Positions 35,691 through 53,734 of a stretch of DNA of 64,000 bases are shown here, in pieces (positions within the stretch are counted from its first letter, which is position 1; each line of letters begins with the position of its first letter). The stretch comes from Candidatus Sulfidibacterium hydrothermale (GTDB lineage Bacteria; Bacteroidota; Bacteroidia; Bacteroidales; F082): positions 1,612,001 through 1,676,000 of the forward strand of contig NZ_CP083760.1 in NCBI RefSeq assembly GCF_020149915.1. The letters are read 5' to 3'. The notes beneath the pieces are model-generated. The model did no database searches. It was not told where the DNA came from and was given only the letters and a program-made list of their open reading frames with translations. The translations under genes and the position numbers were made by a program.

Positions 35691-35774
35691 AATCCCGAAG
35701 GGATTAAACATCAATAACCCTGTACGAAGTGCAGGGAAATAAACCCATCAAAAAAGCATAACCCCAAAGGGGTT
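35691..35774 (+). repeat. Three-hairpin element, copy A
   Basis: Hairpin 1 AATCCCGAAGGGATT (35691-35705), a 12-nt spacer, hairpin 2 CCCTGTAC/GTGCAGGG with a GAA loop (35718-35736), a 23-nt spacer, and hairpin 3 AACCCCAAAGGGGTT (35760-35774). Two further small palindromes follow (35787-35800 and 35819-35831). The order and spacing match four other copies in the window. It lies in the 828-nt gene-free stretch 35220-36047, which otherwise holds only repeats. Confidence 0.8.
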
Positions 35775-39475: not shown

Positions 39476-41728
39476 TTATGGTTTTACCCCGAACGGAATC
39501 CGGATGTTCAGCGAGATGTTCCGGCCCATGTTGTAAATGCCCACATCTTTCAGCGTGGAAAGATGGTCGAAATAGCGGGTGTTCAGCAGATTCGACGCTG
39601 TGAGGCTGAAGCTGACAATCTGGTTTTTTACCTTCAGGTCGGTGCCGATGGCGGCATTCAGCAAAAAATATCCCGGGGTAGCCGTTTCAAATTCCGACGG
39701 ATGGTTTTGTTTGAATACATAATTGCACGAAATTTTAAAAAACGAAGTGCGCCAGTTTTTCCACTGGTTTTTTCTGACCATGGCTTCAAAGTGCAGTTTG
39801 TTGGCCGGAATGAGCGGCAGATAACCGCCTGTATTTTTCCGGGCATACAGGTAGGTGTAATTCAGCTTTAAGTGAAGCCAGTCGGCACTTTGCGGATGAA
39901 AATGAATGCCGGCTTCGCCACCGGTCAGGTACGACGGCGTTTGTTCGTACCGGTAAATTTTGGTGCCGTCGGTCAGCGTGTCGGCAGTGGGCGAGAGGTA
40001 AATGTAGTTGTTGATGTAATTGTAAAAAAGGGCAATGTCGAAAGTGGTAAAAAGGGTGTGAAGATGCAGCCCGAGATCGGCTTCGAGGTTTTGTTGGTTT
40101 TTTAAATCGGGATCGCCAATTTCATAGCGGTCGCCGTGCATGCCGTTTTGGGTGAGTTCGGCAATGTTCGGGCTGCGAAAAGCCGATGCCAGATTAAACC
40201 GCAACAGCAGTTGTTTGTTCAGATGAATGGTGGTTCCGGCTGAAGCACTCACATTGTTAAAATTTCTGTCGAGTCGCGGCATGGTGGTGCTGTTGTCTAT
40301 TCCGGCTTTATGTTCAGGAACGGTAACATGCCGGTGGTCGAAACGCAAGCCGGCTTCCAGAATAACGGCCTGTCCGAAAGTATGACGGGCCATACTGAAG
40401 ACCGAAAAGTCATTTAAATCGGCATCCGGGATCACGTGCTGCGGGGCGTCGCCGTTGCGGTTGGTCTGACTCATGCCCTGAAAGCCTAAAAAGGCTTTGG
40501 TGCTGGTGGTAAACTGATAAATGCCTTTGATGCGGTAATTAAAGGTTTTTAAAGTCATGTTTACCAGTTCTTTCACCGGTGTCAGATCGGAACCCTGAAG
40601 CTTCCGGTTGTTGTTTTGAAAAGCGAAATCGGCGTTGATTTTCAGGTTGCCAAGAAAAATTTTGTTTTTTGAAATGATCAGATGGTCGGTCAAATCCTGA
40701 TACCAGACATCGTTTTTTCGTCCTCTTTTGGTGACCAGTTCCAGGGCTGGCGGCACCGCCATGCCAAGTTTTGAGCGGTTGTAGTTGTAAAAAATGCGGA
40801 AGCTGCCGATGTTTTTAATGTATCCGGCATTCAGTTCGGCACTGTGGGTGTTAAAACGTGTGTTGTAAGCTGTTCCGGCTTTTCCGCCCTGTTCAAAGTC
40901 GGCATTGCTGTTGATTTGTGCCCCGGCACCCCACACAAAACCGTTTTGGTTGCCTTTCAGTTCAAGACTGGACAGTGTTCCGAGTGTGTTGCTGAAAAAT
41001 TTCATGTTGGCGGTGCCTTCGATACTTCCTTCTTTGGCGGCGGGTTCTTCCACCAGATTTATCACGCCGCCCACAGCACCCGAGCCGTACATGAGTGATG
41101 CCGGGCCTTTGATGATTTCCACCCGGCCGATGCCCAATCCCTGCGTGAGGTACGGATGGTCTTCCGAAAACTGAAAATTGGCCATGGGAATGCCTTTGTT
41201 GAGTACCAAAACATTGCTTAGCGAGAGTCCGCGGATGACCGGCGTTCCCACACCGGGACCTTTGGAAATCATGCTAACCCCCGGAACACTTTTTAACGTA
41301 GCCATAAAACTGGGTTGTGCTACCTGAGTAATGTCTTTGGTTTCCAGTGTGTTGATGGCGATGGTGTTTTCGTGTTGTGTGCCGGTAAAACTGCCGGTAA
41401 CCACCACTTCCTGCCCCTGAATGACCATGGGTTTCATTTTGATATTCAGGTTGATAACCTGGCTCTTGTTTTGAATTTCCACTTTCCGGGTAACCGTTTC
41501 ATATCCGACAAAGGAATAGGTAACAAAGAAAGTTCCTTTGGGCAGGTGGTTTAAAACATATTTTCCGTCGGCATTGCTAACGGTTCCCTGTGATAATTCG
41601 TTGACGTACACATTAACGCCGGGCAGCGGTTCGTTGTTTTGTGCATCGGTAATACGTCCGCTGATGCTTTGCGCATTTACTTTTAAAAAAAGAAATGCGA
41701 AAAAGAAAATGAGAAGTTTTGTTTTCAT
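39476..41728 (-). CDS. TonB-dependent outer-membrane receptor, ZnuD-like
   Basis: 750 residues. Signal peptide 1-19, carboxypeptidase-like regulatory domain about 21-100 (ISGRITDAQNNEPLPGVNVYV), plug about 105-230 (PVIRGLSLSNVLVLNKG, FSEDHPYLTQGLG, VEIIKGPASLMYGSGAVGGVIN), then a 22-strand-type barrel. The ending RYFDHLSTLKDVGIYNMGRNI resembles the end of zinc receptors of the ZnuD type, and the plug SEDHP matches their SPDHA. With the His-rich small gene upstream this suggests uptake of zinc or another soft metal. Substrate is inferred; haem or copper remain possible. Confidence 0.88.
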   Translation of the reverse strand: MKTKLLIFFFAFLFLKVNAQSISGRITDAQNNEPLPGVNVYVNELSQGTVSNADGKYVLNHLPKGTFFVTYSFVGYETVTRKVEIQNKSQVINLNIKMKPMVIQGQEVVVTGSFTGTQHENTIAINTLETKDITQVAQPSFMATLKSVPGVSMISKGPGVGTPVIRGLSLSNVLVLNKGIPMANFQFSEDHPYLTQGLGIGRVEIIKGPASLMYGSGAVGGVINLVEEPAAKEGSIEGTANMKFFSNTLGTLSSLELKGNQNGFVWGAGAQINSNADFEQGGKAGTAYNTRFNTHSAELNAGYIKNIGSFRIFYNYNRSKLGMAVPPALELVTKRGRKNDVWYQDLTDHLIISKNKIFLGNLKINADFAFQNNNRKLQGSDLTPVKELVNMTLKTFNYRIKGIYQFTTSTKAFLGFQGMSQTNRNGDAPQHVIPDADLNDFSVFSMARHTFGQAVILEAGLRFDHRHVTVPEHKAGIDNSTTMPRLDRNFNNVSASAGTTIHLNKQLLLRFNLASAFRSPNIAELTQNGMHGDRYEIGDPDLKNQQNLEADLGLHLHTLFTTFDIALFYNYINNYIYLSPTADTLTDGTKIYRYEQTPSYLTGGEAGIHFHPQSADWLHLKLNYTYLYARKNTGGYLPLIPANKLHFEAMVRKNQWKNWRTSFFKISCNYVFKQNHPSEFETATPGYFLLNAAIGTDLKVKNQIVSFSLTASNLLNTRYFDHLSTLKDVGIYNMGRNISLNIRIPFGVKP

Positions 41729-43746: not shown

Positions 43747-43766
43747 GACTTTAATTTTTTAGATTA

Positions 43767-43871: not shown

Positions 43872-43951
43872 TGGCTTCTTTACTGTGTTCAACATATCAA
43901 GGTGAAGGTTTACGGGGAACTTGAAATAAATGAAATCCCGAAAGAATTTAA
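43872..43951. repeat. Direct repeat, left copy (related to the lead of hairpin element B2)
   Basis: An approximately 80-nt unit similar to 44171-44250, with an identical 45-nt core (43898-43942 and 44196-44240, starting CAAGGTGAAGGTTTACGG). In the right copy the core runs directly into hairpin 1 of element B2. In the left copy the hairpin is broken (GAAAGAATTTAAT). It appears to be a remnant of another copy. Confidence 0.75.
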
Positions 43952-44036
43952 TTTATTGTTTTTACGGTTCTATGTTGGAAGCTGTTTGACGAATAATTTG
44001 TGCCTCACTCTGCCATTTGATTATTTTTTTTTATTT

Positions 44037-44121
44037 AACCCCTGCAGGGTTAAGCTTATTTGTTTTGTATGTTTCCCTGTCTTTCGGACAGGGTTATTTC
44101 TGTTATATCCCTTCGGGATAT
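44037..44121 (-). repeat. Three-hairpin element, copy B1 (inverted)
   Basis: On the minus strand: hairpin 1 ATATCCCGAAGGGATAT (44105-44121), 11-nt spacer, hairpin 2 CCCTGTC/GACAGGG (44075-44093), 23-nt spacer, hairpin 3 AACCC/GGGTT (44037-44051). It is about 90% identical to copy D beside the transposase, including the flanking AT-rich tract. Its stem 2 has perfect pairing where D has a G-U pair, consistent with structure being maintained. Confidence 0.8.
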
Positions 44122-44231
44122 GCTTTTTCTCAAATACTCTTAGCAATCAAAATAGGAATTTGTTATTTACAGATTCTTCACTGTATTCAAAACAACAAGG
44201 TGAAGGTTTACGGGGAACTTGAAATAAATGA

Positions 44232-44315
44232 AATCCCGAAGGGATTGAATAAAAATAGCCACTGGTTTTTACCAGTGGAATAGGTATAAAGAAACGAAAG
44301 AATCCTGAAGGGATT
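44232..44315 (+). repeat. Three-hairpin element, copy B2, downstream of the transposase
   Basis: Hairpin 1 AATCCCGAAGGGATT (44232-44246), 12-nt spacer, hairpin 2 CCACTGG/CCAGTGG (44259-44278), 22-nt spacer, hairpin 3 AATCCTGAAGGGATT (44301-44315). Hairpin 3 lies exactly 16 nt from the stop codon of the transposase gene. It is inverted relative to copy D on the other side of that gene. Confidence 0.8.
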
Positions 44316-44331
44316 CAATAGACAAGTCTAA

Positions 44332-44778
44332 TTACAGCAAATATTTTTCATCGAATTCAATTTGGTGTTCTTTTAATAAACGGACGTATTCCTCTTTAAA
44401 AGTCGCCTTATGATGATGCTCTTTTTGATTTTTTACATAATTAATCAGGTTGTCTTTTGCTGTGATTGCGTATGTAAAAGCACCATATCCATTTTGCCAT
44501 CCGTTGAATTTTGGGAAAAGATGTTCTGTTTTAATGTAATCAGATGTAGCCAGCTTAATATCTTTTACCAAATCGGCAACGGCAGTCGTTGGATGTATAT
44601 GTGTAATAATATGGATGTGGTCTTCTGTTCCGCCCATTTGATACAAATGACAATTTTTCTTTTTTAAGATTCCCCGGATATATCGGTACAGCTTTTCCCG
44701 GCCGGATTCGGCCAAAGTTTTTTCGCGGTTTTTTGTAGAAAAAACAATTTGATAAAGAATTTGGGTGTAGGTACTCAT
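44332..44778 (-). CDS. IS200/IS605-family (Y1) transposase, TnpA-like
   Basis: 148 residues. The HUH metal-binding motif is H54-I55-H56 in EDHIHIIT, and the catalytic Tyr is Y114 in NYVKNQKEHHHKATFKEEY, a signature of Bacteroidota IS200-like enzymes. MSTYTQILYQIVFSTKNRE is the usual start. It cuts single-stranded DNA next to hairpins through a covalent Tyr-DNA bond. No tnpB is present. The gene is intact. Single-copy transposase plus dispersed hairpin elements makes a domesticated RAYT-like role plausible. Confidence 0.9.
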   Translation of the reverse strand: MSTYTQILYQIVFSTKNREKTLAESGREKLYRYIRGILKKKNCHLYQMGGTEDHIHIITHIHPTTAVADLVKDIKLATSDYIKTEHLFPKFNGWQNGYGAFTYAITAKDNLINYVKNQKEHHHKATFKEEYVRLLKEHQIEFDEKYLL

Positions 44779-44794
44779 GGATTATTTTTTATTT

Positions 44795-44879
44795 AACCCC
44801 TGCGGGGTTAAGCTCATTTATTTTTTCTGTTTCCCTGCCCTTCGGACAGGGTTATTTCTGTTATATCCCTTCGGGATAT
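44795..44879 (-). repeat. Three-hairpin element, copy D, upstream of the transposase
   Basis: On the minus strand: hairpin 1 ATATCCCGAAGGGATAT (44863-44879), 11-nt spacer, hairpin 2 CCCTGTCC/GGGCAGGG (44833-44851), 23-nt spacer, hairpin 3 AACCCC/GGGGTT (44795-44809), then a 16-nt AT-rich gap to the transposase ATG. It may also serve as the leader or promoter region of that gene. Confidence 0.8.
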
Positions 44880-44962
44880 TTGTTTACAAAAGAATAAAGT
44901 GGTAAAAAATCCTATACCTTGTACAAAAATAGTTGAATTTAAGATGTTTAAAACCTAGATAG

Positions 44963-45005
44963 TTTTCTGTTTCTTTGTGGTTGAAAACCACAAAGAAACA
45001 GAAAA
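44963..45005. terminator. Perfect 20-bp palindrome downstream of the YjbQ gene
   Basis: Arms 44963-44982 and 44986-45005 pair without a mismatch around a GAA loop (TTTCTTTGTGGTT core). It starts 7 nt from the stop of the YjbQ gene and could end its transcript, though a T-run is not pronounced. It resembles the palindromic repeat at 38892-38921 in style and loop position. Confidence 0.55.
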
Positions 45006-45012
45006 AATAATT

Positions 45013-45429
45013 TTATTCGCCGATGATTTTTACCAGGACCCTTTTCCGGCGTTTCCCGTCAAATTCACCGTAGAAAATTTGTTCCCACGGACCGAAATCC
45101 AGTTGCCCGTCGGTAACGGCTACCACCACCTCGCGTCCCATCACCTGCCGTTTCATGTGGGCGTCGGCATTGTCTTCAAAAGTGTTGTGGTGATATTGCG
45201 AATGGGGTTTTTCCGGTGCCAGCTTTTCGAGCCAGGTTTCAAAATCGCGGTGCAGACCGGCTTCATCATCATTGATAAAAACGCTGGCCGTAATGTGCAT
45301 GGCATTCACTAAAACCAGTCCTTCCCGGATGCCGCTTTCTGCCAGACATTGGTTGACCTGCGGCGTAATATTGATAAAATCGCGACGGTGCGGTGTGTTA
45401 AACCACAATTCTTTTCGGTATGATTTCAT
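45013..45429 (-). CDS. YjbQ / UPF0047 family protein
   Basis: 138 residues, the full length of the family. Conserved blocks: [43 protein letters not shown] and [21 protein letters not shown]. The His residues around HxxAS and HMKR line the putative active site. E. coli YjbQ has been linked to thiamine-phosphate synthase activity; the physiological role is unclear. A TACCTTTG box precedes the gene. Confidence 0.9.
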
Positions 45430-53652: not shown

Positions 53653-53734
53653 AATCCCAAAGGGATTCTATGTGATTAACCACGGGTTTCACCCGTGGGA
53701 TGAAAATAACGGGAAGCCGAACCCCAAAGGGGGG
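53653..53734 (+). repeat. Three-hairpin element, copy C
   Basis: Hairpin 1 AATCCCAAAGGGATT (53653-53667), 12-nt spacer, hairpin 2 CCACGGG/CCCGTGG (53680-53698), 21-nt spacer, hairpin 3 AACCCCAAAGGGGG (53720-53734). It is closest to copy B2 in hairpin 2, with paired changes (ACTGG/CCAGT against ACGGG/CCCGT). Confidence 0.78.

Follow-up and report, generated by a model that had tools for sequence, protein, structure and literature searches.

The window analyzed here, a stretch of 64,000 nucleotides (nt) from the genome of the Bacteroidales bacterium Candidatus Sulfidibacterium hydrothermale (contig NZ_CP083760.1, positions 1,612,001 to 1,676,000), carries an IS200-like transposase gene, tnpA, between two copies of an 84-nt element made of three hairpins (hp1, hp2, and hp3). 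The gene and its two flanking elements, referred to below as the cassette, lie in the gap between an M20 peptidase gene and a UPF0047 gene. As the initial annotation had described, the flanking copies, B2 and D, are inverted relative to each other. Both were recognized by R1, a covariance model trained on 20 host-genome copies; D and a further copy, C, belonged to the training set, and B2 had been left out of it. The main features are as follows.

44332..44778, minus strand: TnpA-Y1 transposase gene, 148 amino acids (aa), with motifs DHIH, WQ, and YVKNQKEHH assigned from the motif table of PMC6006769
44795..44878, plus strand: three-hairpin element D, 5′ of the gene and pointing away from it (R1, 97.9 bits as a training member; fold), with hp1 at 44793-44811, hp2 at 44833-44851, and hp3 at 44863-44879
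44232..44315, minus strand: three-hairpin element B2, 3′ of the gene and inverted relative to D (R1, 47.0 bits as a nontraining copy; fold), with hp1 at 44300-44316, hp2 at 44259-44278, and hp3 at 44232-44246
44791..44794, plus strand: ATTT, the 5′ RTTN foot of hp1 in D, read from the sequence
44316..44319, minus strand: ATTG, the 5′ RTTN foot of hp1 in B2, read from the sequence

The tnpA reading frame is intact and matches Y1_Tnp (E value, 5.3e-24) as well as the IS200 family models, and the protein has the histidine-hydrophobic-histidine (HUH) motif, the catalytic tyrosine, and the Y1 fold of IS200/IS605 transposases. When its AlphaFold2 model (mean predicted local distance difference test score, 84.7) was compared with the PDB, the IS608 and ISDra2 transposases came out on top (best E value, 1.5e-9), with IS608 TnpA the closest, and 4er8, a transposase associated with repetitive extragenic palindromic (REP) sequences, was matched as well (E value, 7e-6). 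The motifs and the predicted fold point to an intact HUH/Y1 single-strand DNA endonuclease, an activity that we infer from them. By size and motifs (DHIH, WQ, and Y---Q--HH), the protein fits TnpA-Y1 subclass 1.2, and its low copy number (one match in the host genome at an E value of ≤1e-15) is in keeping with that subclass. The class 2 motif Y---NP of REPtron proteins is absent, with YVKNQKEHH in its stead. Five further Y1-like genes (L002 to L006) with open frames of 153 to 243 aa are present in the host genome.

The three-hairpin element and its position at related loci

Each element follows one plan, in which RTTN and hp1 come first, a variable spacer of about 20 nt leads to hp2, and a linker conserved as (C/T)TATTCA connects hp2 to a second RTTN with hp3. 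Among 127 elements from nonhost genomes, the R, T, and T ahead of hp1 and hp3 are conserved at 92 to 98% per position, and conservation ends directly after hp3. The GT[AG]G tetranucleotide that marks the foot of REPs in REPtrons occurs somewhere in 52 of these 127 elements, yet not at the feet of hp1 or hp3. In an alignment of 150 elements (139 distinct), all 19 stem pairs showed changes on both sides, and 97.2% of cells were paired, compared with 78.1% in shuffles and 25 to 51% in slid controls; this alignment was fitted to the structure and is biased toward it. The same three-hairpin plan was recovered by a model-free hairpin search. Rfam gave no match on the elements at an E value of ≤1 between positions 41000 and 48000 of the window, where three subthreshold microRNA matches all fell on a perfect hairpin at 44947-45017; across 15 relative loci, its single match was Acido-Lenti-1, which fell short of its gathering score and covered an element copy in L157.

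We then compared the locus with the best 80 of 494 relatives in a species-genome collection (61 to 78% identity), whose record titles name mostly Bacteroidota, with some Ignavibacteria, Balneola, Calditrichia, and others. Of these 80 loci, 75 were searched with R1, a few of them from a single genome, and 71 proved to hold at least one element. Within 160 nt of the gene, an inverted element lay on the 5′ side at 53 of the 75 loci and an outward-pointing element on the 3′ side at 49, with both present at 37. The nearest 5′ element was inverted in 53 of 63 cases (binomial P = 3e-8), and the nearest 3′ element pointed outward in 49 of 55 (P = 2e-9). Strict hairpin triples called without any model were found in 31 of 78 flanks on the 5′ side, in 39 of 79 on the 3′ side, and on both sides at 21 of 77 loci; the corresponding counts were 27 among 1600 control windows taken from these loci and 4 among 785 shuffled flanks. 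Of the symmetry that the initial annotation took to exceed chance, the framing by hairpin triples is borne out, and the equality of the two distances is not supported as a signal.

On both flanks, the hairpin nearest to the gene is hp1, which had been numbered hairpin 3. The reported 16 nt on either side was reproduced with the R1 boundaries (44316-44331 and 44779-44794), yet it depends on where the boundary is drawn, as maximal stems leave 15 nt beside B2 (hp1 ending at 44316) and 14 nt beside D (hp1 starting at 44793). At related loci, 5′ distances of 15 to 19 nt were found in 20 of 53 cases and 3′ distances of 4 to 8 nt in 36 of 49, so that the 16 nt on the 3′ side of the window is unusual. 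Equal spacing was rejected as a constraint: the two distances agreed in 0 of 35 comparable relatives by R1 boundaries (35 valid pairs among the 37 loci with both elements) and in 0 of 21 by stem edges. Judged from these sequences, the 16/16 equality in the window is accidental.

In more distant relatives (39 to 50% identity), hairpins that are often of another type also lie near the gene, in 10 of 21 flanks on the 5′ side and 13 of 21 on the 3′ side, compared with 48 of 793 control windows; in 4 of the 21, no hairpin was found within 45 nt on either side. In four distant subclass relatives (L059, L063, L064, and L065), the gene is surrounded not by three-hairpin elements but by single ACCCCTACGGGGT hairpins in repeated copies, spaced by about 54 nt in L059. 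A relative was encoded in 0 of 161 candidate stretches of viral contigs. The only plasmid match was partial, pairing 163 nt from within the gene with a Bernardetia tnpA, and phages gave a single match, at 25%.

Dispersed copies and traces of gain or loss

The element is not confined to the cassette: a search of the host genome returned 38 copies at an E value of ≤0.1, mostly without the gene. Just 1 of the 30 best host copies lies inside an open reading frame (ORF) of at least 120 codons, whereas random positions drawn from these loci did so in 544 of 777 cases; this intergenic dispersal resembles that of REPs in REPtrons. No transposase remnant was detected near the other host copies at an E value of ≤0.01 (54 host loci, many of them overlapping). 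At a number of host loci (L068, L071, L074, L082, and others), the element is embedded in a larger composite repeat that includes a palindrome module upstream, a TTTAAGTACTTCA-type module downstream, or both. Neighboring elements within 300 nt of each other were inverted in nine of nine cases in the host, G149, and G153 genome lists. In a wider tally, 25 of 26 neighboring pairs were inverted, those outside these three genomes being picked by eye from among the matches listed. Same-orientation arrays occur at other spacings or loci (host positions 1403319-1404189, L147, and L158); the first of these (L018 to L020) consists of three near-identical elements in direct tandem at a spacing of 393 nt. 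The window itself contains the following additional features.

44037..44120, plus strand: three-hairpin element C, with hp3 toward B2 and 111 nt between them (R1, 92.9 bits as a training member), within a 99-nt repeat shared with D at 92%
44145..44160, plus strand: outer terminal motif beyond C, CATYAAAATAGGAATT with one mismatch, from a motif scan; the same motif ends dispersed units in G149 and G153
43876..43952, no strand assigned: remnant A, comprising hp3 and the outer portion of an end that resembles B2 (77 nt, 90%)
35691..35774, minus strand: dispersed gene-less copy (R1, 107.3 bits as a training member)
53653..53734, minus strand: dispersed, diverged gene-less copy (R1, 35.4 bits)

Remnant A and C may together represent a decayed gene-less copy of the cassette beside the intact one.

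Between positions 43750 and 45050, 11 terminator-like stem-loops with T-rich tails were counted where 1.2 would be expected, nine of them being hairpins of C, B2, and D and one lying in the gene. The remaining one, between the cassette and the UPF0047 gene, is a strong terminator-like hairpin with a perfectly paired 20-bp stem and a 3-nt loop (44963-45005). One could therefore propose that the elements have no role in transposition and terminate transcription, or act as insulators, on either side of a selfish gene. Both elements point outwards, though, and from its orientation, the 5′ one would stop neither the transcript of the gene itself nor incoming transcription. In addition, most of the 30 best host copies have, on one side or both, no long ORF for hundreds of bases, and a terminator would need neither the RTTN foot nor the fixed linker nor an 84-nt three-part plan that recurs across genera. 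We regard this account as improbable, and termination is unlikely to be the main function of the elements.

Comparison with closely related genomes revealed sites that lack the cassette. In G146 and G153, which belong to the same genus as the host, the stretch of the M20 peptidase-UPF0047 gap that does not align measures 263 bp and 147 bp, against 1243 and 1303 bp in the window, with blurred breakpoints, and an R2 search found no element between the two genes in either genome. A similar comparison, one-sided because the left flank did not align, was made for the host copy L024, the right flank of which matches five same-genus genomes; R2 found no element beside that flank in the corresponding loci. 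Weak R2 matches were seen in a different gap further along from the compared site, at 2650-2722 of L218 (34 bits) and 2080-2148 of L221 (19 bits).

Gene-less derivatives were found in two genomes. In G149, a unit of about 460 bp with the ends GGCTAA.../...TTAGCC is present at three sites, each time between other flanking sequences, and consists of two inverted elements with a core of roughly 100 nt between them. G153 has two gene-less units with C-terminal remnants of the transposase (L103, E value of 3e-9; L122, decayed) and, at L214, an N-terminal piece (E value, 1.5e-14); reversed sequences, used as a control, gave nothing below an E value of 0.016. The repeated units of G149 and G153 extend past hp3 to the outer terminal motif that also stands beside C in the window. 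As a general feature, this motif was rejected, because a match of at least 13 of 16 positions was found beyond hp3 in only 6 of 138 flanks (1 of 138 on the inner side), and it is thus clade-specific. As the window holds eight matches with up to three mismatches where 3.5 are expected, we limit the claim there to the one-mismatch site beside C. The proposal of a transposable or domesticated unit with composite hairpin ends is partly supported, by the conserved ends, by the absence of the cassette from G146 and G153, and by the gene-less derivatives in G149 and G153, which indicate gain or loss as a unit; it has to be amended for those genomes in which the unit reaches past hp3.

A REPtron-like reading and its relation to known systems

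We consider it probable that the cassette belongs to a REPtron-like mobile system of TnpA-Y1 subclass 1.2 with composite ends. The composite element would be the cognate substrate of TnpA, two inverted, outward-pointing copies would delimit the gene, and solo dispersed copies and gene-less inverted pairs would be nonautonomous members. By analogy, TnpA probably binds the hairpins as single-stranded DNA, with RTTN serving as a guide like those of IS608 or the GTAG of REPtrons, and would cleave and move the elements, spreading them as proposed for REPs. Such a guiding role is proposed for GTAG and the IS608 guides in PMC8266576.

Several observations weigh against this interpretation. The hairpins are terminator-like, and the copy number of the gene (one host match at an E value of ≤1e-15) gives no sign of present-day movement. 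Among the 75 loci searched with R1, the sole element within 160 nt has the wrong orientation in three on the 5′ side and in four on the 3′ side, and no strict hairpin triple was found on either flank at 30 of 77 loci. Moreover, 20 of the 30 best host copies are embedded in the composite repeat, so that their number is not attributable to the enzyme alone. These embedded copies would also suit a different explanation, in which the repeat family of the host spreads by other means, such as the composite repeat or different Y1 proteins, and the transposase just happens to lie between two of the copies. The five other Y1-like genes are available for such a route, and genomes that have the element without a close orthologue (14 of 163 in the family set and 34 of 272 in the order set) could be due to another mobilizer as well as to gene loss or draft assemblies. 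G203 has at least 15 element matches and lies outside the genomes with a transposase match at an E value of ≤1e-30; gene loss or another mobilizer could account for this.

What speaks against spread by other means is that the gene is enclosed by the same oriented pair across many genera, as a rule at short distance, that the pair of ends is retained in gene-deleted units, and that element and orthologue are statistically associated. In the family set of 173 genomes, the element was present in 8 of the 10 with a close orthologue (one orthologue being a 76-residue fragment), against the 14 of 163 others (Fisher P = 7e-7). In the order set of 295 genomes, it was present in 18 of the 23 whose orthologue scored 190 bits or more, against the 34 of 272 others (Fisher P = 3e-11). 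Both comparisons are weakened by cut-offs chosen after the lists had been seen, by the host genome standing in both sets, by the counting of elements at the gene, and by uncorrected kinship. Where a search spanned more than 40 genomes, the filters were stricter and 26 or 15 candidates were scored per genome, so that presence alone was taken from it. On balance, we hold it unlikely that the family spreads without the transposase, and the REPtron-like system remains the preferred reading.

A conventional, active IS200/IS605 insertion sequence with subterminal hairpins would agree with the matching IS200 family models, with a fold closest to IS608 TnpA, and with the absence of the cassette from the same gene pair in relatives. 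The present system shares with IS608 and ISDra2, as these are described, the Y1 fold, the HUH motif, the tyrosine, and hairpins with a 5′ guide tetranucleotide. The hairpins at IS608-type ends lie on the same strand. IS200/IS605 ends have same-strand hairpins and no terminal inverted repeats, whereas the end elements here are inverted, hp1 and hp3 being on the same strand within one element. Dispersed gene-less copies and a low gene copy number are further differences from IS608 and ISDra2: the many copies in the host contrast with the one gene match, and the several near-identical full copies per genome that are typical of IS200/IS605 according to PMC6006769 are not found there. An ordinary insertion sequence is thus a very improbable explanation.

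As described in PMC2817692 and PMC8266576, REPtrons, i.e., REP-associated tyrosine transposases (RAYTs) with their REPs, bacterial interspersed mosaic elements (BIMEs), or REP doublets forming hairpins (REPINs), resemble the system favored here in having a Y1 gene flanked by inverted palindromic elements, and REPs resemble the present elements in their intergenic dispersal, their inverted pairs and arrays, and a conserved tetranucleotide 5′ of the palindrome. They differ in having one hairpin where there are three in 84 nt, GT[AG]G where there is RTTN, and the class 2 Y---NP where there is Y---Q--HH, and the 38 host copies are far below the more than 100 usual for REPs. Tyrosine transposases associated with terminal inverted repeats (TIRYTs, or TIRtrons), as presented in PMC3733652, likewise combine a Y1 gene with inverted ends, copies of which are dispersed in some genomes; an outer inverted motif is present in some clades here. 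The three covarying hairpins set the present ends apart from that description, and 20 of 26 published TIRYTs are assigned in PMC6006769 to subclass 2.1 with helix-turn-helix-like tails.

Subclass 1.2 is listed without a REP in Table 1 of Quentin et al. (2018; PMC6006769), as a low-copy group of Bacteroidetes, and no REP partner for it was found in passages of the openly licensed PubMed Central literature. The transposase agrees with that account in its 148 aa, DH[IV]H, WQ, and Y---Q--HH motifs, low copy number, and occurrence in Bacteroidetes; unlike the published subclass, for which neither REP-like nor IS200-like ends are given, it has composite hairpin elements at 71 of 75 related loci. The program of that study, as outlined there, looked for REPs with a GT[AG]G foot, manual inspection being named for some subclasses, and the RTTN foot of the ends differs from the one sought. 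We read the ends at subclass 1.2 genes as a revision of the published description and not as grounds for excluding the gene from the subclass.

The host genome also contains eight exact chimeric hairpins that join the left arm of hp1 to the right arm of hp3, against no exact reciprocal ones. Seven of the eight are solitary, and the other (L232) is the hp3 of a full element. Five chimeras (L228 to L231 and L234) lie in contexts similar to the upstream composite module. For L234, a likeness to the downstream module was seen by eye as well (module scores, 0.81 and 0.68); its repeat context is much like that of full copies, and it has the look of an element that had lost the 69 nt separating the two loops. 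Slippage or recombination between CCCTTCGGG, common to hp1 and hp3, would explain the chimeras more simply than enzyme action. More speculatively, and with doubt prevailing, each 84-nt element might be a complete minimal mobile unit, in which hp1 and hp3, two similar same-strand hairpins with RTTN guides, form the left and right ends for one TnpA dimer, hp2 is a spacer or recognition handle, and the cassette is two such units inverted around tnpA. If true, this would account for the solo dispersal, the loss of conservation after hp3, and the chimeric hairpins.

In the REPtron-like reading that we prefer, a transposase subclass described without DNA partners appears to possess composite ones with a foot sequence of their own. 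Such a system would stand in the space now empty between REP systems and IS200 insertion sequences, would supply a defined substrate for biochemistry, and would identify one source of the interspersed palindromes in Bacteroidota genomes.
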